Position numbers and translations under genes: made by a program
Shown here: positions 20 to 8,222 of the stretch, piece after piece
How the letters are laid out: every line of letters starts with the position of its first letter
How positions within the stretch are numbered: the first letter of the stretch is position 1
Assembly: GCA_030453005.1 (NCBI GenBank)
Contig: JAKDLE010000091.1
Location: 1 to 8,222, forward strand
Direction of reading: 5' to 3'
Length of the DNA: 8,222 nucleotides
Source of the DNA: Pseudonocardia sp.
GTDB taxonomy: Bacteria > Actinomycetota > Actinomycetes > Mycobacteriales > Pseudonocardiaceae
Notes under the pieces: generated by a model
What the model was told of the DNA's origin: nothing
Databases searched by the model: none
Seen by the model: only the letters and a program-made list of their open reading frames with translations

Positions 20-148
20 TCAGACGCTCACTCCACGAGAGCCGCACCCGAATCGTTTTACCCGGGCTGAAGTCGTCGGAGTCAGGGGGACGAGATATTG
101 CTTCTGGCCCTCGAGAAGTGGTTCGAGGGTCATCTCCTTGGCCTGCAC
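20..148 (-). pseudogene. Truncated DUF262 (GmrSD-type) N-terminal fragment
   Basis: The GTG start at 148 directly follows the TAA stop (151..149) of the upstream gene, with an AGGAAGG-like ribosome site about 7 nt before it. The first 22 codons encode a start typical of DUF262 proteins, ending LLEGQKQYLVPL. In that family this is followed by a YQR.YSW segment belonging to a ParB/Srx-like nucleotide-binding fold; DUF262 is the N-terminal domain of GmrSD-type, NTP-dependent, modification-dependent restriction enzymes. Here the similarity stops after VPL (CTG codon 85..83), and the frame continues with unrelated residues to TGA at 22..20, giving 42 aa. Another - strand frame is open from about 81 to the window edge and may belong to whatever was joined here. 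The family call rests on a short but characteristic segment. What is seen is the abrupt loss of similarity; the junction is inferred. Confidence 0.5.
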
Positions 149-568
149 TTACTGGCCTTCCTGCTTCGTCGGATACCGCGGGCCCCGATCGGGGGGTGGA
201 TCACCGCGCAGGTCGGCGAGCCCGCCCACCACGCCGCCAACCTCGCCGTGCCATTCCCGCAGCTCGATGGCCGTCGGTGCCAGCTTGTAGGCGTGGTGGT
301 GCGCGGCGCGGCTGAGCACGTGCCACAGCTCGGTACCGCGGCGGCCGAGGTCGGCGTCGACGGTCCGGGTCAGTGTCAGAAGTTGTGCCCGGCGCGACGC
401 CGCCGCGACCTCGGGCCGGCGGGCGGCCCAGAAGTCGTCGACCGCATGCTCCAGGGCCAGGCGGATCAGCCATGTGCACGCCCGCGGCCAGACCCCCGGC
501 TCCACGAGGCCGGGATCCTGGAGCAGTCGATCGGCCACGGCGAGCCGGCGCAGCCCGTCGTGACTCAC
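149..568 (-). CDS. Small HEPN-like helical partner protein of the ATPase
   Basis: A 139-aa protein starting at GTG 568, whose GTGA overlaps the TGA of the upstream ATPase gene by 4 nt, so the two are probably translationally coupled and act together. It is predicted to be mostly helical: a helix around residues 27-50 with C31, L39, E40 and W47, a RAQLLTL helix around 60-66, then LSRAAHHHAYKLAPTAIEL at 85-103 and W106. R87-x4-H92 fits the RX4-6H motif of HEPN ribonucleases. The C-terminal domain of the neighbouring ATPase shows a similar layout with its own AHH motif, so the two may share a fold. HEPN proteins cut RNA in many toxin and anti-phage systems; that activity is inferred here, not shown. 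The final 20 residues are Pro/Arg-rich and look like a disordered tail. The ORF itself is very likely real; the fold assignment is moderate. Confidence 0.8.
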   Translation of the reverse strand: MSHDGLRRLAVADRLLQDPGLVEPGVWPRACTWLIRLALEHAVDDFWAARRPEVAAASRRAQLLTLTRTVDADLGRRGTELWHVLSRAAHHHAYKLAPTAIELREWHGEVGGVVGGLADLRGDPPPDRGPRYPTKQEGQ

Positions 569-3004
569 GTCTGCAGCCAGTCGGCGAGCTGCTCGGCGTC
601 GCGCACGAACGGCCGCAGATCGCCGGTGAGGCCATGGTGTGCACCTTGCTTGCAGTTCTGCAGCGCACCGACCGCCCATGTCCCGACGGACCGCAGCCTG
701 CCCAGCAGATCGGAGCCGCGGCCCGGGTCGTCGAAGACAGCGAGGGTGGCCTTCTTGTGGGTGGTCGTCGCCTCGGCGATCGCCGCCTCCACCGCGGCAT
801 GGGTGTCGCCCCGGGTGAGACGCACGCTGCGGATCCTGGCGTGGCAGGCCGCCTCGATCGCGCTCCTGCAGCACGACGCGACGAGTTCGCTGCGGATGTC
901 CGCAGGCAACTCCTTCGTCGACGCCATCGCGCGGGCGTCCTCCAGGTAGCGCTTGACCGGATCGTCGCTGCGCCGCATTTCCACGACGGAGCGCTCCTGA
1001 CGTTGCACCTCCCAGACGGTCGCCGAGAGCTCCAGGCGACGCACGGCGTCGGCGAGGCGGTCGTCGTGGGTGAACACGACGACCTGTCGCGTTGCCGCGA
1101 CATCGGCCAGTACGCGTGCCAGGCCGTCGACCTTCGCCGGGTCCATCGCCTGGACCGGGTCGTCGATGAGGACGAACCGGAACGGGCTCTGCTCGACGGT
1201 CGCGCGCGGGAGGAACAGCGACAGGCCGAGCGCGTGCAGCTCGCCCTGGCTCATCACCCCGAGCGCGGTGCCGCCGTCGGTCCCGTCGATGCGGACGTCC
1301 ATCTCCACCCGGCGGCGCGTCTTCGTGCCGTCCAACCGCACCGGGCCGAGATCGACGTTGCTCTGCTGGCGCAGCAGCTGCCACACCTTCTGCGACTCCT
1401 CGGCGAACGGCGCGAGGCGCTCCCCGCGCAGCTCCCCGGCGGCGGCGGTCAACCAGTTCTCGGCCTTCTGCAGTGCAGCGAGACGGGGTGCCTGGGCCGC
1501 CACCCGAGCGGCGTCGTCGTGCCAGGCACTGAGCCGGCGCGCGATCGGCACCCAGACCTCGTCGCGCTGGGTCAGCTCCTCCTGTGCCCGCTTGCGGGCG
1601 TCGTCGGTGGCCTCGACCAGCGGTGCGTGCGCACGGTCGAGGGCATGCGCCAGCTCCGCGGCGCCGGGTGTACGACCTGCCTCGACCCACGCCGACCACG
1701 CTCCGATGACGGCTTCGACGTCCACCGGAGGCGAAACTTCCAGCACGGCGGGGAGCGGGCCGACGAGGCCCTGTGCCGACGCGACCGCGGCGTCCAGCTC
1801 GGATGTCGCCTGCCGCAGCTCCGTCGCAGCCACCTCGAGTGCCTCGGCCCGACTCCCTGCGGCCTCGCGCCACGCCTCGTCGAGCGTGCCCTGCTCGCAG
1901 ACCGGACAGGTGATCGCCGCCCGCCCGTCGTGATGGTGCAGCGCCCCTCGCAGCAGCGCGGCGACCTCGTCGGCAGACCGGACCTCGTCCCCGGCGAGGA
2001 CGTGTACGCGATCGGCCGCCGCGCGAACCCGACCGGTGGTGGCGGCGACCGTGGCCGCGTCCGGAACCGGCAGGGAAGCCAGGGCGGCGAGAGCGGGCGC
2101 CTCCCCGTCCCCGTCGTCGATCCCGGCGACCAGCTCGGCAACGGCTGCGAGGTCCGGTGCGGTCGGCTTGAGCAACGCGGCGGCCCGGACGACACGGTCG
2201 TCGTCGACGTCGGCCAGCTCGGTGCGCAACGCGCGCCGCGTCGCGCCGACGGCTCGCGCGTCGTCGGCGAGCCGTTTGCGCGTGACCCGCAGCCGTTCCT
2301 GCGCCTCTCCCAGCGGACCGAGGCCGAGCAGGTTGTGCAGGGCGTCGTGCAGCTCGCTGGGCTTCCCGTCTATCAGGGCGCCGAGCTCGCTGTAGGACAG
2401 GAACGGCCGGTAGGTGCTCATCTCCTCGCGCCACTGCGCGCCGTCGAAGTCCTCCCGCTTCTCGCCGCGGCGCTGCCGGGTCCAGCGGCCGCCGTCGAGC
2501 TCGGACCCGGGTTCCCCACCGGCGCTCGATCCGGGTGGTGCCCGGCGGTCCGGCGGTCACCAGGTCGACGGTGACGGCGGTCGGCCCGTCGGAGTGGAGG
2601 TTGCGCCAGCCCTCCTTCCACACCGCGGTGCGGCCCGACCAGCGACCGCTGTTGCCGGTGAGGGCGAGCTCGGCGGCTTCGGCGAAGCTCGACTTGCCGG
2701 AGCCGTTGCGGCCGGTCACCAGGGTCAGCCCGGGGCCGGGGCGCAACGGCAGGGTGGCGGGCTCGCCGATGCCGCGGAACCCCTCGACATGCACCGCGGC
2801 GAGATAGGCATCCGGTTGCGGCTCCCGCTGCGGAGGTTTCCTCGGGTCGGTGGCCGTCGAAGGCCGGCCTTCCAGCGCGGCCGCGAGGTCGTCCTCGCCC
2901 TCCCACGCGGCCAGCACCAGGCCGGCGACCTGATCGTCAGCCGTGTCGTCGGCCAGGAGCCGCTCCAGCAGCAGGTCGTGCAGTCCGTGCTCAGCCTCGT
3001 CCAC
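565..3004 (-). pseudogene. Rad50/RloC-like SMC-type ATPase with zinc hook, frameshifted
   Basis: Start is GTG 3004 with GAGGGGG just upstream (3015..3009). Reading breaks at a GGGG run (- strand, positions 2517..2514). Dropping one G joins codon W163 to the frame that ends at TGA 567..565, giving 812 aa. The joined protein has Walker A G98-RNGS-G103-K104-S105, a helical middle interrupted by CPVC (366-369) resembling a Rad50 zinc hook, an ABC signature MSQGE (584-588), Walker B FVLIDDP with D614/D615, a D-loop-like AMDP, and an H-loop histidine in FTHDD (H646). This is a complete ABC/SMC-type ATPase set. Residues about 699-812 form a separate helical domain with a conserved-looking CRSAIEAAC segment and NCKQGAHHG (H789, H790), HEPN-like in outline. 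Zinc-hook ATPases fused to nuclease domains (for example RloC) sense DNA damage or phage infection, which suggests this role. As written the gene yields only a 163-residue ATPase start, so it is broken unless the extra G is an error. Confidence 0.85.
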
Positions 3005-3059
3005 ACGTCCCCCTCGGCTGTGATCGCACCAACACTAGGGACGCTCGGTAACCGGTTAC
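3005..3059 (-). promoter_or_regulatory. Putative promoter and 12-bp palindromic operator for the ATPase gene
   Basis: Upstream of GTG 3004 the - strand shows a TANNNT-type -10 (TAGTGT, 3037..3032), giving an expected transcription start near 3025 and a leader of about 20 nt holding the GAGGGGG ribosome site (3015..3009). No good -35 is visible. At 3048-3059 lies a perfect 12-bp palindrome, GTAACCGGTTAC, in the space where sigma factor or a repressor would contact DNA. A separate, controlled promoter for the ATPase and its small partner is plausible. The palindrome is seen directly; its function is inferred. Confidence 0.4.
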
Positions 3060-3359
3060 ACGCCGGGTGTCACGATCGGGTGATGCGGTCGAAGATCGGG
3101 AAAACGCTGGTGCGGTGATCGGTGATCCACATGGGTCGGCTCCTGGTTGGTCGTGGTGGCGCGGTGTCGTCGCGACACCGGGCGCGTCGAGGCCGCGCGG
3201 GGTGCGTGGGTGTCGCACACGTCGCTGATCAATCGGTGCAGGGCGGCGATGTGGCGCTGGAGATCGGGGTACGCCCCGCTGCGGTTCAGGCGCCGGTAGA
3301 TCTGCATGAGCTCCGCGACAACGTTTCGAAGTCGGGGGCCCCGGCCTGGGCTTCTTCAC
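3056..3359 (-). pseudogene. Small helical hypothetical protein, probable frameshift near its start
   Basis: The clearly coding-like core reads MQIYRRLNRSGAYPDLQRH then IAALHRLISDV, an amphipathic helical stretch from ATG 3307, with TAA at 3058..3056 (83 aa if started there). The same frame runs upstream of this ATG as NVVAEL, which looks like part of the same helix, but no start codon lies between it and the preceding stop. A GTG at 3359 overlaps the upstream TGA (GTGA, 3359..3356) and reads VKKPRPG in another frame. Removing one base, for example from the GGGG run 3342..3339, joins the two and gives a 100-aa protein coupled to the gene before it. The last 45 residues are Pro/Arg/His-rich and may not be native. 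I do not recognise the family. Similar short genes occur in actinobacterial mobile islands, but that comparison is from memory. Confidence 0.4.
3070..3132 (-). CDS. Possible 20-aa leader peptide
   Basis: A 20-codon frame (ATG 3132, TGA 3072..3070) preceded by AGGAG with a 7-nt gap, the clearest Shine-Dalgarno arrangement on this stretch. The peptide begins MWITDHRTSVF and is not a family I recognise. It overlaps the 3' part of the small helical gene in another frame and ends about 65 nt before the ATPase start. It may be a leader or coupling peptide, the start of a broken gene, or chance. Confidence 0.25.
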   Translation of the reverse strand: MWITDHRTSVFPIFDRITRS

Positions 3360-3881
3360 GTGCGTCTGATGGTCTGCTTGAGCGGTCCCGTGTAGTCGGT
3401 TCCGAGAGCCGACACCTGGCCGCGGTACGGACCTGGCCCCGATCCGCACGCGGCTCACGTCGTTCGCCGGCAGCCACACCTCGTCGCCGACGGTCAGCGG
3501 TTCGGGGCCGCCCCACGCGTAGGCGTGGCCTCCCACCTCGACGATCTGGCGCCCGGTCGGCTCCGTCATCCGCCGCGGCGGCTTGGCCGCCTGCTCCAGC
3601 TCGCTGATGCGCTGCTGCAGCTGCTCGATCCGGAAGTCGGCGAATCCCCGGATCGATTCCTGGGCGTCGCGGTAACCCTGGCGGTAGGCAGCGCGGCGGG
3701 CGGTAGCGAGTTCGGTCTCGGCATCGGCGGCGTGCTGCCGGCAGGCGACCTCGAACCGTGGGTCCGGGATCCGCTGGCGACATGGTCGACCGCCTCGGGT
3801 CTCCCGCCCGCAGAGCTTCGGCGCGGGGGTGGTGGTCGTCGGCTCGCTCGGGCTCGGCCCGGAGTCATGGGGTGTCGTCAT
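3356..3881 (-). pseudogene. Cys/His-motif, coiled-coil protein with SH3-like C-terminus, frameshifted
   Basis: Start ATG 3881 lies 40 nt after the 96-aa gene on the same strand, without a strong ribosome site. The protein has a Pro/Thr-rich start, then C24-x10-C35-x11-C47-x2-H50, a likely metal site. A charged helix follows (about 50-100, including RIEQLQQRISELEQAAK, a probable coiled coil), then a beta-rich region with GDEVWLPANDV (133-143). The frame breaks after about residue 149. Removing one base near 3434-3440, most simply from GGGG 3440..3437, continues as GPYRGQVSALGTDYTGPL and ends at TGA 3358..3356. The result is a coherent 174-aa protein whose end looks like a small SH3/KOW-like barrel. 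Without the repair the frame runs on as low-complexity residues to 2991, which I take as artefact. The function is unknown; the layout suggests a small DNA- or protein-binding accessory protein of a mobile island. Confidence 0.6.
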
Positions 3882-3921
3882 GTTGTCGGTTCGCTCGCGA
3901 TGGAGGGCATCGCCAGGTCCA

Positions 3922-4212
3922 TCACGCGACCGCCCGCTGCGACGCAAGGGGATCCGACTTCGAGCGTGGGCGGGGGATCGCCGGCGGGGCGATCGCCCGT
4001 GCCGGAACCGAGGTGAGATGCCATCCGTCGCACCCGGGGCAGTGGTAGGAGCGGACCGGGTCCTTGTGCATGGCCCGGCCCCAGGCACGGATCTGGGCCA
4101 GTGCGAGATCGGCGGCGATCCGGTCCTCGTACCAGCGCTTCCCACACGACCGGCGACGCTCCGTAACAGGCGCGAGTACGTGAGCGACGGTGAGGGCAGG
4201 GCGGTGGTGCAT
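3922..4212 (-). CDS. 96-aa CxxC zinc-ribbon-like protein
   Basis: ATG 4212 has a good ribosome site (AGAGGTGA, gap about 4 nt) and TGA at 3924..3922. The core runs from C23 through a helix RIAADLALAQIRAWGR (31-46) to YHCPGCDGWHLTS (56-68). The C58-P-G-C61 pair, H65 and C23 could ligate zinc. Short proteins with a YxCPxCxGWHLT ending are common in actinobacterial plasmids, integrative elements and prophages; their function is generally unknown. It is the first gene of the leftward unit and faces the modification genes across the shared control region, so a regulatory role is possible but not shown. The Arg/Pro-rich tail (about 69-96) looks disordered. Confidence 0.75.
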   Translation of the reverse strand: MHHRPALTVAHVLAPVTERRRSCGKRWYEDRIAADLALAQIRAWGRAMHKDPVRSYHCPGCDGWHLTSVPARAIAPPAIPRPRSKSDPLASQRAVA

Positions 4213-4343: not shown

Positions 4344-4375
4344 AAAGAAGTAATGGACATGCTACGGTCTCGTTG
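4339..4375 (+). promoter_or_regulatory. Rightward promoter, probably giving a leaderless transcript
   Basis: TTCACA (4339-4344, 5 of 6 to TTGACA), an 18-bp spacer, then TACGGT (4363-4368, TANNNT). The GTG start codon at 4375 follows after 6 nt, exactly where transcription should begin. No Shine-Dalgarno sequence precedes this GTG, and an in-frame TAA lies upstream at 4351-4353, so a leaderless mRNA, common in actinobacteria, is the simplest reading. Confidence 0.5.
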
Positions 4376-6048
4376 TGAACGTTGAGGAGGACCTGCAGAC
4401 AGCGGCGTGGATCGCTCGGCAGGTCGGGGTGGGTCGTGCTGCGGTCGCCAACTGGCGCAAGCGGTACCCGGACTTCCCGCAGCCCGCGGCGGGCGGGGCG
4501 AACAGCCCGCTGTTCTCCTGGTCGGCGGTGCAGGCATGGCTGGTCGAGAACGGCAAGGCCGGCCAGCTCGCTGCTACCGGGCGCACCGTCACGGGGACGC
4601 AGCTCATCGGCGATGCGCCGTCCGTTCAGGGACTCGACCGGGATCTGTCGGACCTGGAGCCGGGGGAGCTGCTCGCTCGCGTGCTGGTATCGCTCCTGCC
4701 GCGGCTCGGTGACGACGCGCCTGACGACGATAGGGAGACACTCGTCGTCCTTGACCCGGCCTGTCGTGACGCGGCGGTACTCACCGCGGTCGCTGAGCGC
4801 TACTGCGACCACGTGCGCCTGGCCGCGCAGGCCCCGGACGACACGGCCGCGGACACCGTGCGCCGCGTGCTGCCGGCGGTCGGTGACCTCGTGCGGGTGG
4901 GCGACGCGCTGCGGACGGACCTCTTCGCGGCGTCTCGGGGCACGGCCCGGGCGGTGCTGTGCGTCCCGCCACCGGCGATGCGCCAGTGGCCGGCGACGGA
5001 CCTGGCGGCCGATCCCCGCTGGCGCTACGGCCTGCCGGACCCGGCCGATCCGGATCTCGCGTGGGTGCAGCACTGCCTCGCGCACCTGCGTCCGGGCGGG
5101 GTGGCCGTCGTCGTGGTCTCCCCGGTCACCGGGCAGCGACCGTCCGGACGGCACGTGCGCGCGGCGCTCGTCCGGGCCGGAGTGGTGCGCGACGTCATCG
5201 CACTCCCCGACGGGCTGGCCGAGGGAGCCGTCCACCTCTGGGTGCTGCGCCGTGGCGGCGACGAGCAGTCCGTCCGGATGGTCGACCTGACCGGGCTCGA
5301 ACCGGCCGACGTTCCGCAGGACCATGCCGCCTGGAAGCCGGTTCTCGCCGCCGACGACCAGGCCCTCGTCCGGTCGGTACCGCAGGTGGAGCTCCTCGAC
5401 GGCGACACGCCCCTGGTGCCGGCGCGGTACCTGCGTCCCGCGGCGTCGCTGGACGATCTGGGGCCGGTCACGGCGCGCCTGGGCCGGCTCTACGTCGACC
5501 TCGCGCGCGCGCTGCCCCAGCCGACCCCGGCCAGCTCGGCTGCCGGCCGGTCCCACGTGACGCTCGCCGAACTGGAACGGTCGCGGGCGATCACGATCCT
5601 GCCCCGGGACGCCACCCCCCGGGCCGGCGACCTGCTGTTCCGCACGATGGGCCGCGACCCCGTCGTCGCCGACGGCACCGCCGACGACGAGCGCGGCGTC
5701 GCGCAGGTGGTGGGGATCGACACCGACCGGCTCGACCCGCACTTCGTGGCGATGTTCGTCCGCGCCGACGCCCGCGCCGCCCCCGTCGCCAACACCCACA
5801 GCGCGCTGACCCGCGACGACGTGCGCCGCTGCCGGATACCGCGGATGCCACTGATCGAGCAGCGCCGCTACGGCGACGCGTTCCGACGGCTCTCGGAGCT
5901 CACCGCGGTGGCGGCCCGGCTGGCCGCCGTGACCGACGCCGTCGTCACCCAGACCGTCCACGGCCTCACCGCGGGCGCCCTCGATCCCGCAGCCCTCGGC
6001 GCACCAGGCACCATCGAACCCCCCGAGAACGAGAAGAGAACGCAGTGA
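4375..6048 (+). CDS. HTH - degenerate N6-methyltransferase - HsdS-like fusion protein
   Basis: A 557-aa protein. Residues about 8-35 form a helix-turn-helix (WIARQVGVGRAAVANWRKR, then YPDFPQP) like those of MerR/AlpA-type proteins, followed by FSWSAVQAWL (47-56). Residues about 120-300 look like an N6-adenine methyltransferase fold. The SAM-binding motif reads DPACRDAAVL (127-136) where active HsdM has DPACGTGG, and the catalytic NPPF position reads CVPPP (196-200), lacking the Asn. Residues about 395-530 resemble a type I specificity half: GDLLFRTMG (418-426), a recognition-domain-like stretch, then IPRMPLIEQRRYGDAFRRL (488-506) and a helix, as in HsdS C-termini. It ends in TGA 6046-6048, overlapping the hsdM start by 4 nt. 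I infer a catalytically dead relative of M/S proteins that regulates or accompanies HsdM. Related HTH-bearing N-6 methylases with intact motifs exist in actinobacteria. Confidence 0.8.
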   Translation: MNVEEDLQTAAWIARQVGVGRAAVANWRKRYPDFPQPAAGGANSPLFSWSAVQAWLVENGKAGQLAATGRTVTGTQLIGDAPSVQGLDRDLSDLEPGELLARVLVSLLPRLGDDAPDDDRETLVVLDPACRDAAVLTAVAERYCDHVRLAAQAPDDTAADTVRRVLPAVGDLVRVGDALRTDLFAASRGTARAVLCVPPPAMRQWPATDLAADPRWRYGLPDPADPDLAWVQHCLAHLRPGGVAVVVVSPVTGQRPSGRHVRAALVRAGVVRDVIALPDGLAEGAVHLWVLRRGGDEQSVRMVDLTGLEPADVPQDHAAWKPVLAADDQALVRSVPQVELLDGDTPLVPARYLRPAASLDDLGPVTARLGRLYVDLARALPQPTPASSAAGRSHVTLAELERSRAITILPRDATPRAGDLLFRTMGRDPVVADGTADDERGVAQVVGIDTDRLDPHFVAMFVRADARAAPVANTHSALTRDDVRRCRIPRMPLIEQRRYGDAFRRLSELTAVAARLAAVTDAVVTQTVHGLTAGALDPAALGAPGTIEPPENEKRTQ

Positions 6049-8027
6049 CCCTGCCCGGTTCCGGCCCCACGCACACGCGGATGGCGAGCGACATCTGGTC
6101 GGTCGCCGACCTGCTGCGCGGTGACTACAAGCGCCACGAGTACGGGCAGGTGATCCTGCCGTTCACGCTGCTGCGACGCCTCGACGCGGTGATGGCCCCG
6201 ACCCGCGACGCCGTCCGCGCGCGAGATGCAGCGCTGCCGGACATCCAGAACAAGCAGCGCCTGCTGGAGGTGGCGGCGAAGCTGCCGTTCTACAACGTCT
6301 CCGAGCAGGACTTCGCCTCGATCGCCTCTGACGCCACCGGTGTGGCGCGGAACCTGCGCGACTACGTCAACGGCTTCTCGCCGAACGTCCGGGAGATCCT
6401 GGGTCAGTTCAAGCTGGACGACGAGATCACGCGGCTGGCCGGCTCCAAGATCCTCTACAAGGTCGTCGGCCGGTTCGCCGAGATGCGCGACCTGGACAAG
6501 CTGTCCAACCACGACATGGGTTACGTGTTCGAGCACCTGATCCGCAAGTTCGCGGAGGACTCGAACGAGACGGCCGGTGAGCACTTCACGCCGCGCGAGG
6601 TCATCAAGCTGATGGTGAACCTGCTGATCGCGCCCGACGCCGAGACGGTGGCGGGGGAGGGGCAGGTCATCAACGTCCTCGACCCCGCCTGCGGCACGGG
6701 CGGGATGCTCACCGCGGCCGAGGACCGGATCAAGGCGATCAACCCGAAGGCCGAGGTCTTCGTGTTCGGCCAAGAGCTCAACGGCGAGTCCTGGGCGGTG
6801 TGCCAGGCCGACATGCTGATGAGCAGCCACCGCGGCGCCGTCGCCTTCGGCAACACGTTCAGCGACCCGGCGCACGGCGACAAGAAGTTCGACTACATGC
6901 TGGCCAACCCGCCGTTCGGGGTGGAGTGGAAGAAGGTCAAGGACGAGATCGAGTCGGAGGCCGAACTCGGGCACGGCGGCCGCTTCGGCGCGGGCCTGCC
7001 GAGGATCAACGACGGCTCGTTCCTGTTCCTGCAGCACATGATCTCCAAGATGGAGCCGCGCGAGAAGAAGGGGGCCCGCCTCGCGATCGTGTTCAACGGG
7101 TCCCCGCTGTTCACCGGCGCCGCGGGGTCCGGCGAGTCACGCATCCGGCAGTGGATCCTGGAGAACGACCTGTTGGAGGGCATCGTCGCGCTGCCCGACC
7201 AGCTCTTCTACAACACCGGCATCTCCACGTACTTCTGGATCCTGTCCAACCGCAAGGTCGCGGCGCTGCGGGACAAGGTGATCCTGCTCGACGCCCGCGA
7301 GCAGTGGGAGAAGATGCGCAAGAGCCTCGGCGACAAGCGCAAGCAGATCAGCGAGCCGCAGATCGAGCACATCACTCGCGTGTACGTGGACGCCCTCGCG
7401 GTCGCGGCCGACCCGGAACGTGCCGATCACGCCAAGGTGAAGGTCTTCCGCACCCGCGAGTTCGGCTACCACCGCATCACGGTCGACCGCCCGCTCAAGC
7501 AGCGCTTCGAGATCACCGACGACACCCTCGCCGCGTTGGAGAATGCCCGCTCCCTGGCGAAGTGGGGCAGCCGGGACGAGCTGGTCTCGGCGCTGCGTCC
7601 GTTGGCGGGAACGGTGTGGTGGACGAAGAAGGAGGCCGGCGACGCCCTGCGAGCCGCCGCCCGCGCCGCTGGGGTGCTGTGGCCGACCACGGCGTCGGTG
7701 GTCAAGGGCATCTGGGGTGCGGTCGCGGTGTCCGATCCCGAGGGTGAGGTGCAGATGGCCAAGGGTGACGTGCTCCCCGACCCCGACCTGCGCGACTACG
7801 AGAACGTCCCGCTCGACGAGGACATCGAGGTGTACTTCCAGCGCGAGGTCATCCCGCACGTGCCCGACGCCTGGATCGACCACGACAAGACGAAGGTCGG
7901 CTACGAGATCCCCTTCACCCGCCACTTCTACGTCTACACCCCACCCCGCCCGCTCGCGGAGATCGACGCGGAGTTGCGGGAGTTGGAGGAGCAGATCCAG
8001 AAGCTGCTGGGGGAGGTGACGGGTTGA
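6045..8027 (+). CDS. hsdM: Type I restriction-modification DNA methylase subunit M
   Basis: A 660-aa protein starting at GTG 6045 (GTGA overlap with the previous stop; purine-rich GAGAAGAG upstream). An earlier in-frame open stretch overlaps the previous gene and lacks homology, so this start is preferred. Residues about 13-165 form the HsdM N-terminal helical domain (SDIWSVADLLRGDYKRHEYG). The methyltransferase domain follows with EHFTPREVIKLM (179-190), SAM motif DPACGTGGML (213-222) and catalytic NPPFG (288-292), all intact, so it should methylate adenine N6 in the target recognised by an HsdS subunit. Residues about 455-660 are the long C-terminal region seen in many actinobacterial HsdM proteins, including PFTRHFYVYTPPRPL, and end in a helix (LRELEEQIQKLL) of the kind that contacts HsdS. 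The usual complex is M2S1 for modification and R2M2S1 for cleavage. The next gene is a cut-off hsdS, and no hsdR is seen. Confidence 0.95.
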   Translation: MTLPGSGPTHTRMASDIWSVADLLRGDYKRHEYGQVILPFTLLRRLDAVMAPTRDAVRARDAALPDIQNKQRLLEVAAKLPFYNVSEQDFASIASDATGVARNLRDYVNGFSPNVREILGQFKLDDEITRLAGSKILYKVVGRFAEMRDLDKLSNHDMGYVFEHLIRKFAEDSNETAGEHFTPREVIKLMVNLLIAPDAETVAGEGQVINVLDPACGTGGMLTAAEDRIKAINPKAEVFVFGQELNGESWAVCQADMLMSSHRGAVAFGNTFSDPAHGDKKFDYMLANPPFGVEWKKVKDEIESEAELGHGGRFGAGLPRINDGSFLFLQHMISKMEPREKKGARLAIVFNGSPLFTGAAGSGESRIRQWILENDLLEGIVALPDQLFYNTGISTYFWILSNRKVAALRDKVILLDAREQWEKMRKSLGDKRKQISEPQIEHITRVYVDALAVAADPERADHAKVKVFRTREFGYHRITVDRPLKQRFEITDDTLAALENARSLAKWGSRDELVSALRPLAGTVWWTKKEAGDALRAAARAAGVLWPTTASVVKGIWGAVAVSDPEGEVQMAKGDVLPDPDLRDYENVPLDEDIEVYFQREVIPHVPDAWIDHDKTKVGYEIPFTRHFYVYTPPRPLAEIDAELRELEEQIQKLLGEVTG

Positions 8028-8200
8028 AGGCGATGGTTCCGCTGAAGAGGTTGGCTCGCCTGAACTACGGCGATGCCCTGGCTGCCGCTGTGCGAGAAGA
8101 GGGCGAATATGCTGTTCTTGGTTCCGGCGGCCGAACTGGGATTCACAACAGGGCCAACACCTCTGGCCGTAAACATTCAGGCTTGATGATCAGAGCATGA
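8024..8200 (+). pseudogene. hsdS: Truncated type I specificity subunit HsdS (N-terminal fragment)
   Basis: TTG at 8024 overlaps the hsdM TGA by 4 nt and has GGGGGAGG (8009-8016) at a 7-nt gap, better placed than for the in-frame ATG 8033. The 58-aa product starts with VPLKRLARLNYGDAL and continues with YAVLGSGGRTGIHNRANTSG, typical of the first target-recognition domain of HsdS (family pattern NYG.aL, GS.G..G.h, then a GRKGS loop). Full-length HsdS is about 400 aa. Here the frame reads RKHSG after residue 48 and ends at TGA 8198-8200. Either an internal deletion removed the short segment before the GRK loop and broke the frame, or a junction lies near 8168. As written, no working specificity subunit is made in this window. 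The hsdS assignment is fairly firm; the cause of the break is open. Confidence 0.7.
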
Positions 8201-8222
8201 CGTTGTCGCCGGTCGGCCGGTA

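Follow-up and report, generated by a model that had tools for sequence, protein, structure and literature searches.

RloC excises the wobble nucleotide of tRNA, and in Lamassu an SMC-like ATPase (LmuB) controls a separate effector chain (LmuA). A survey of RloC gives the residue triad R-x3-E-x(36-52)-H and a link to type I or III restriction-modification (R-M) for 8 of 73 RloC proteins, and describes PrrC as one chain of 341-416 amino acids (aa), devoid of the hook insert, with a shorter E-H spacing and invariably accompanied by type Ic R-M (PMC2610378). Activation of RloC by a DNA-break inducer is reported (PMC3874168). PARIS detects the anti-restriction protein Ocr and cleaves tRNA by means of AriA, an OLD-type ATPase, and AriB, a Toprim nuclease (PMC12839542). 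Here we describe a Pseudonocardia contig of 8,222 nucleotides (nt), called the window below, which carries the gene of a zinc-hook ATPase, broken into two frames, and an overlapping gene for a small protein with a predicted HEPN fold. On balance we lean towards reading it as a frame-broken copy of a conserved module of zinc-hook ATPase and predicted HEPN RNase, which likely backs up the DNA-defence systems next to it as a suicide switch resembling a split RloC.

The ATPase carries Walker A, hook, signature, Walker B and His loop motifs (Table 1). Positions 2-165 of the ATPase profile are read at 2510-3001 and positions 164-811 at 571-2514, both on the minus strand in differing frames. The open reading frames (ORFs), their coordinates, the ABC motifs, the CPVC hook, the C-terminal helical domain and the GTGA overlap were all recovered as the original prediction had given them, from the translation, the motif positions and the model of an intact homologue. 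The head is predicted to be SMC/Rad50-like, and the hook residues C366, P367 and C369 are invariant across 35 aligned ATPases. As assembled, the copy of the window would make no full-length ATPase, and the break may be real or an assembly fault; the source draft genome (4.45 Mb, 72% complete) is divided into 1058 contigs, of which the window is one. The Pseudonocardia metagenome-assembled genome (MAG) 53_S67 has a complete homologue of 812 aa, likewise overlapped by the small gene (locus L009), which bears out the claim that the pair is real beyond chance; further intact copies were found.

Table 1. Positions of the features in the window.
Feature	Positions	Strand	Remark
Small protein, predicted HEPN fold	149-568	-	139 aa; translation, structure model, conservation
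Codons of small-protein residues	R36 461-463; E40 449-451; R87 308-310; H92 293-295	-	
GTGA overlap	565-568	-	4 nt; ATPase stop, GTG start of small gene
ATPase gene, SMC/Rad50-type	565-3004	-	two reading frames
Larger open ATPase piece	565-2421	-	coiled coils, hook, signature, Walker B, His loop, C-terminal helical domain
C-terminal helical domain of ATPase	568-915	-	R-x3-E, then CKQGAH
His loop	1057-1077	-	VFTHDDR
Walker B	1141-1176	-	FVLIDDPVQAMD
ABC signature	1216-1254	-	MSQGELHALGLSL
Zinc-hook motif	1897-1908	-	CPVC
N-terminal ATPase piece	2480-3004	-	other frame, carries Walker A
Walker A	2687-2713	-	GRNGSGKSS
Methylase-like protein	4375-6048	+	profile match; weak HTH matches near the N-terminus; belongs to the divergent partner module
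HsdM, type I N6-adenine methylase	6045-8027	+	HsdM_N and N6_Mtase; motifs DPACGTGGM and NPPFG
HsdS-like frame start	8024-8168	+	by eye; cut near contig end by repeated sequence

The pair shares with RloC a Rad50-like head, a coiled coil with a CxxC hook, an R-x3-E-x(36-52)-H residue set and an occasional link to type I R-M. The nuclease of RloC lies in its own C-terminus, whereas the matching residues, with their spacing, are here on the separate small protein. The ABC ATPase with its CxxC zinc hook is present; because the triad with the published spacing is absent from the ATPase chain (71 residues separate E and H in the tail of the ATPase P0125), the pair was not classed as RloC. It is most likely a two-chain analogue of RloC, for which we infer RNase activity, trigger and protection. 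The neighbourhood of an ABC ATPase, a predicted HEPN RNase and type I R-M also recalls PrrC of EcoprrI, from whose single hookless chain the pair differs by its two chains, its hook and its varied partners. The ATPase head resembles Lamassu in that LmuB models match it and Lamassu chains appear among its Foldseek results; however, the best LmuB matches cover parts of the ATPase only, the effector is here a predicted HEPN protein, and no PADLOC model, LmuA included, matched the 139-aa protein at E<=1, a subset of the flanking genes being scanned. The two-gene composition of ATPase plus RNase resembles PARIS, but AriA is of OLD type and AriB a Toprim protein, and AriA models match the ATPase only partially. 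The pair had not been recognised as a named system, and neither protein has a full-length match in PADLOC-DB 2.0.0 or NCBIfam: the small protein has no match, and the ATPase only partial ones (NCBIfam with the window pieces; PADLOC-DB also with the intact homologue, among the best 25 of 38 families). The best-ranked literature listings contained no account of the pair; the ABC-ATPase classification of Krishnan et al. 2020, a likely place, lies outside their coverage, and an earlier notice is possible.

The small protein had been called HEPN-like, with an RX4H motif. Its structure model (pLDDT 90.4) displays the helical fold of HEPN domains, which stand at the top of the list in structural comparison, and R87-x4-H92 corresponds to the Rx4-6H motif of the HEPN superfamily. 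Both residues are as proposed, and so is the predicted fold. H92 is conserved in 65 of 67 loci, R87 and H92 are kept together in 47, and R87 is less conserved than R36-x3-E40. The better conserved candidates for the active site are R36-x3-E40 and H92, an R-x3-E...H set. Sequence searches returned little: no Pfam family at E<=1 for the 139-aa protein, weak matches to DUF4145 for two of 32 members (best E 0.034), nothing useful among the PDB sequences, and the label SAV-6107-like HEPN for three listed relatives in UniRef. A HEPN fold is predicted from the model, with a putative RNase role.

The two genes are closely associated. Of the 64 Pseudonocardiaceae genomes that matched in the genus and family scans, 52 had the surroundings of their ATPase genes read (the 12 omitted are 11 of genus g7, taken as Lentzea, and G120). 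The small gene adjoins the ATPase in 51 of 54 loci of these genomes (the exceptions are L086, L087 and L088) and in all 17 loci read from the phylum sample, and the overlap is exactly 4 nt in 38 of the 43 pairs found side by side by a simple gene caller. The distances of the two proteins correlate (r = 0.94, 58 loci, Mantel p 0.001). Counting the window's own genome each time, ATPase matches are patchily distributed: 12 of 62 genomes in the genus, 62 of 346 genomes and 18 of 46 genera in the family, 18 of 346 genomes and 12 of 219 genera in the phylum. The small protein matches in 14 of 62 genomes of the genus, two of these matches being fragments without ATPase. Five of the 14 ATPase copies of the genus are split, interrupted or truncated (the window, G003, G032, the second copy of G013 and G007). 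In PLSDB, six records match; three of these, including a Nocardia record of 2.66 Mb, cover at least two thirds of the ATPase. The ATPase had no match among phage records.

The neighbours of the pair are varied and include several defence genes. As already noted, type I modification genes stand beside it in the window (Table 1). The N6_Mtase family (PF02384) was mapped in 38 pair-bearing genomes, that is all those read outside g7 minus the window's own, and gave 79 matches. Such a match lies within 10 kb of 12 of 40 ATPase copies (0.28 expected) and within 5 kb of 8 (0.15 expected); the Poisson tails for this enrichment are too small, because related species are not independent. A methylase-like gene and HsdM are divergent from the pair in the window, L041, L042 and L071-L073, and HsdM and HsdR in L075, while a hypothetical gene, HsdM, HsdS and HsdR lie in line with it in L079 and L080. 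A Streptomyces anthocyanicus plasmid carries HsdR, HsdS and a methylase near a DUF6119 gene, the pair and a helicase; the arrangement is similar on the Streptomyces plasmid pM92 (L110), with a methylase only in the stretch read. The pair is thus enriched beside N6-methylase genes, but type I R-M is one partner among several; in the closest relative, a DUF4011 helicase takes its place.

The other neighbours were picked for scanning by size and position, not randomly. In L046, L047 and L050 (the last two by cluster only), the pair comes after genes for TerB, a BrxC/D-like ATPase and a helicase, the helicase of L046 matching Shango SngC at 1e-267. Shango, whose anti-phage function has been tested, comprises TerB, helicase and ATPase components (PMC10250203). 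The clusters c37-c36-c35 beside these three loci had been taken for hsdMSR; this was wrong, Pfam identifying TerB, BrxC/D and a DEAD helicase with exonuclease. L042 has a restriction gene of GmrSD type after the pair, as have, by cluster, L039, L043 and L048. DUF4011 helicase-nucleases flank L039, L043, L044, L073, L089, L108 and, by cluster, L074; that of L010 matches PADLOC PDC-S37 at 1.5e-249. A DUF3375 gene, of the Wadjet JetA family, follows the pair in L071. Of the 14 Pseudonocardia copies, 11 adjoin one of these modules; the other three are on a 5-kb contig, interrupted and a fragment, respectively. The window and L009 are 85-90% identical from 84 to 4155, with short gaps, and beyond 4155 their partners differ, a type I module in the window and a DUF4011 helicase in L009, so that one pair lineage occurs with two partners. 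The methylase module of the window is itself 74% identical to those of L041 and L042, also beside a pair. Many of the scanned neighbours did not belong to defence, among them DUF72, cellulase, gamma-glutamyltransferase, phytase-like, DUF5691 and DUF4352 proteins, BTAD regulators and STAND/TPR proteins; several had no profile match at all, and 8 of the 10 compared with PADLOC had no match at 1e-10.

In the mechanism that we propose, the ATPase dimer, with its heads and zinc hook, would keep the HEPN protein inactive. The ATP-dependent state of the heads would shift in response to DNA ends or to a neighbouring restriction complex that is blocked, which would release or align the HEPN active site (R36, E40, H92). 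Cleavage of tRNA or other RNA by the HEPN protein would then arrest the cell. We tentatively extend this to a view, somewhat less likely than not, of the pair as a split RloC, in which an actinobacterial HEPN of anticodon-nuclease type is now separate and held by the Rad50-like zinc-hook ATPase, the ATPase tail would be a HEPN-derived dimerisation partner, and the pair would be a general, exchangeable back-up for type I R-M, Shango, Wadjet, GmrSD and the DUF4011 helicase. If this is true, several DNA-defence systems unrelated to each other are guarded by a single small sensor-effector pair, whose trigger should therefore be a feature that their failures share, such as DNA ends, anti-restriction proteins or phage replication. 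The pair would also be a marker for actinobacterial defence islands, and since sensor and nuclease are on separate chains, activation would be easier to rebuild from purified parts than that of single-chain RloC.

Defence genes adjoin copies of the pair, but not every setting is of this kind, and one group of loci weighs against a defence role. In 16 loci, 13 from Lentzea and 3 from one other genus (L054-L057, L059, L060, L062-L064, L090-L093; L058, L061, L065), genes for a calcineurin-type phosphoesterase and an SbcC-like ATPase come after the pair (Pfam was run on L054 only), and the few neighbours scanned there included no recognisable known defence gene. Such a setting would suit a function in repair, or DNA ends as the trigger. 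The pair could then be a DNA-repair or end-processing complex of the Rad50/SbcC kind, with the small helical protein as a structural or nucleic-acid-binding subunit and no suicide; the Rad50-like head and an OGG-like glycosylase neighbour in some Pseudonocardia point the same way. We nevertheless consider a repair complex unlikely in view of the patchy distribution and frequent breakage of the pair, its enrichment beside N6-methylase genes with other defence genes adjoining too, and the conserved R-x3-E...H set of the small protein.

Two further explanations concern the effector. The small protein could be non-catalytic and the C-terminal domain of the ATPase the effector, as in RloC. This domain (its helices fall within residues 701-811 of the modelled intact homologue) conserves R713 in 35 of 35 aligned members, E717 in 34 and H789 in 29, and the order of its helices is roughly HEPN-like when the models are compared by eye. 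However, the E-to-H spacing does not fall within the range published for RloC, six members, Lentzea proteins included, lack the His, and L101 has lost most of the domain yet kept the HEPN protein. Searches gave no support for a HEPN identity of residues 699-812: 13 tails gave nothing meaningful against Pfam at E<=10, profile-profile alignment (hhalign) detected no similarity to the small protein, and the PDB sequences yielded designed bundles and chance-level matches only. An effector in the tail thus seems quite improbable. We consider about equally improbable a toxin-antitoxin-like module kept by addiction, in which the ATPase would merely neutralise the HEPN RNase and defence would be a by-product. 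The two overlapping genes and the occurrence on plasmids would suit it, and HEPN RNases are common toxins (PMC3710099). An 800-aa zinc-hook ATPase would nonetheless be a costly antitoxin, and in the window, L048 and L050 the ATPase is split or shortened with the HEPN gene still readable, which is unexpected if the ATPase restrains an active toxin. The split RloC-like switch remains the reading that we prefer.

Several observations concern the tail and its variants. In L101 (G593:C15), the ATPase stops at about profile position 720, inside the C-terminal domain, and continues directly into a HEPN gene in which the His motif is retained; in L086 and L088, from one genus, both tail and HEPN are missing. 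The distance correlations gave no support to the tail as docking site of the HEPN protein (partial r 0.18, as against -0.08 to 0.28 for other segments). P0131 (954 aa), a candidate for a natural ATPase-HEPN fusion, was rejected, its ORF departing by eye from the ATPase frame near the end.

Concerning the flanking DNA, the methylase-like protein of the window keeps its N6_Mtase profile match with degenerate motifs I (DPACRDAAV) and IV (CVPPP), whereas HsdM keeps both; its equivalents are also degenerate in L041, L042, L072 and L073 and less so in L045 and L071. From its motifs, it looks like a pseudo-methylase partner of HsdM. The spacer between pair and partner (3341-4155 in the window, 5241-6061 in L009) is 87% conserved despite the different partners and contains short Cys-containing frames; a 409-aa frame in it has no Pfam match. 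In L010, the pair is directly followed by a gene for an OGG-like DNA glycosylase (PF21790; 9422-10246), and a relative precedes the pair in L043 and, by cluster, L048. Two genomes have two pair copies, G025 (L041, L047) and G013 (L044, L050), one copy beside Shango-type genes and the other beside type I or DUF4011 genes. Positions 8169-8222 of the window, where the HsdS-like frame ends, are identical to the start of contig C285 in the opposite orientation, and positions 1-49 to the end of contig C439. Both ends of the contig appear to fall within sequence that is repeated or shared.
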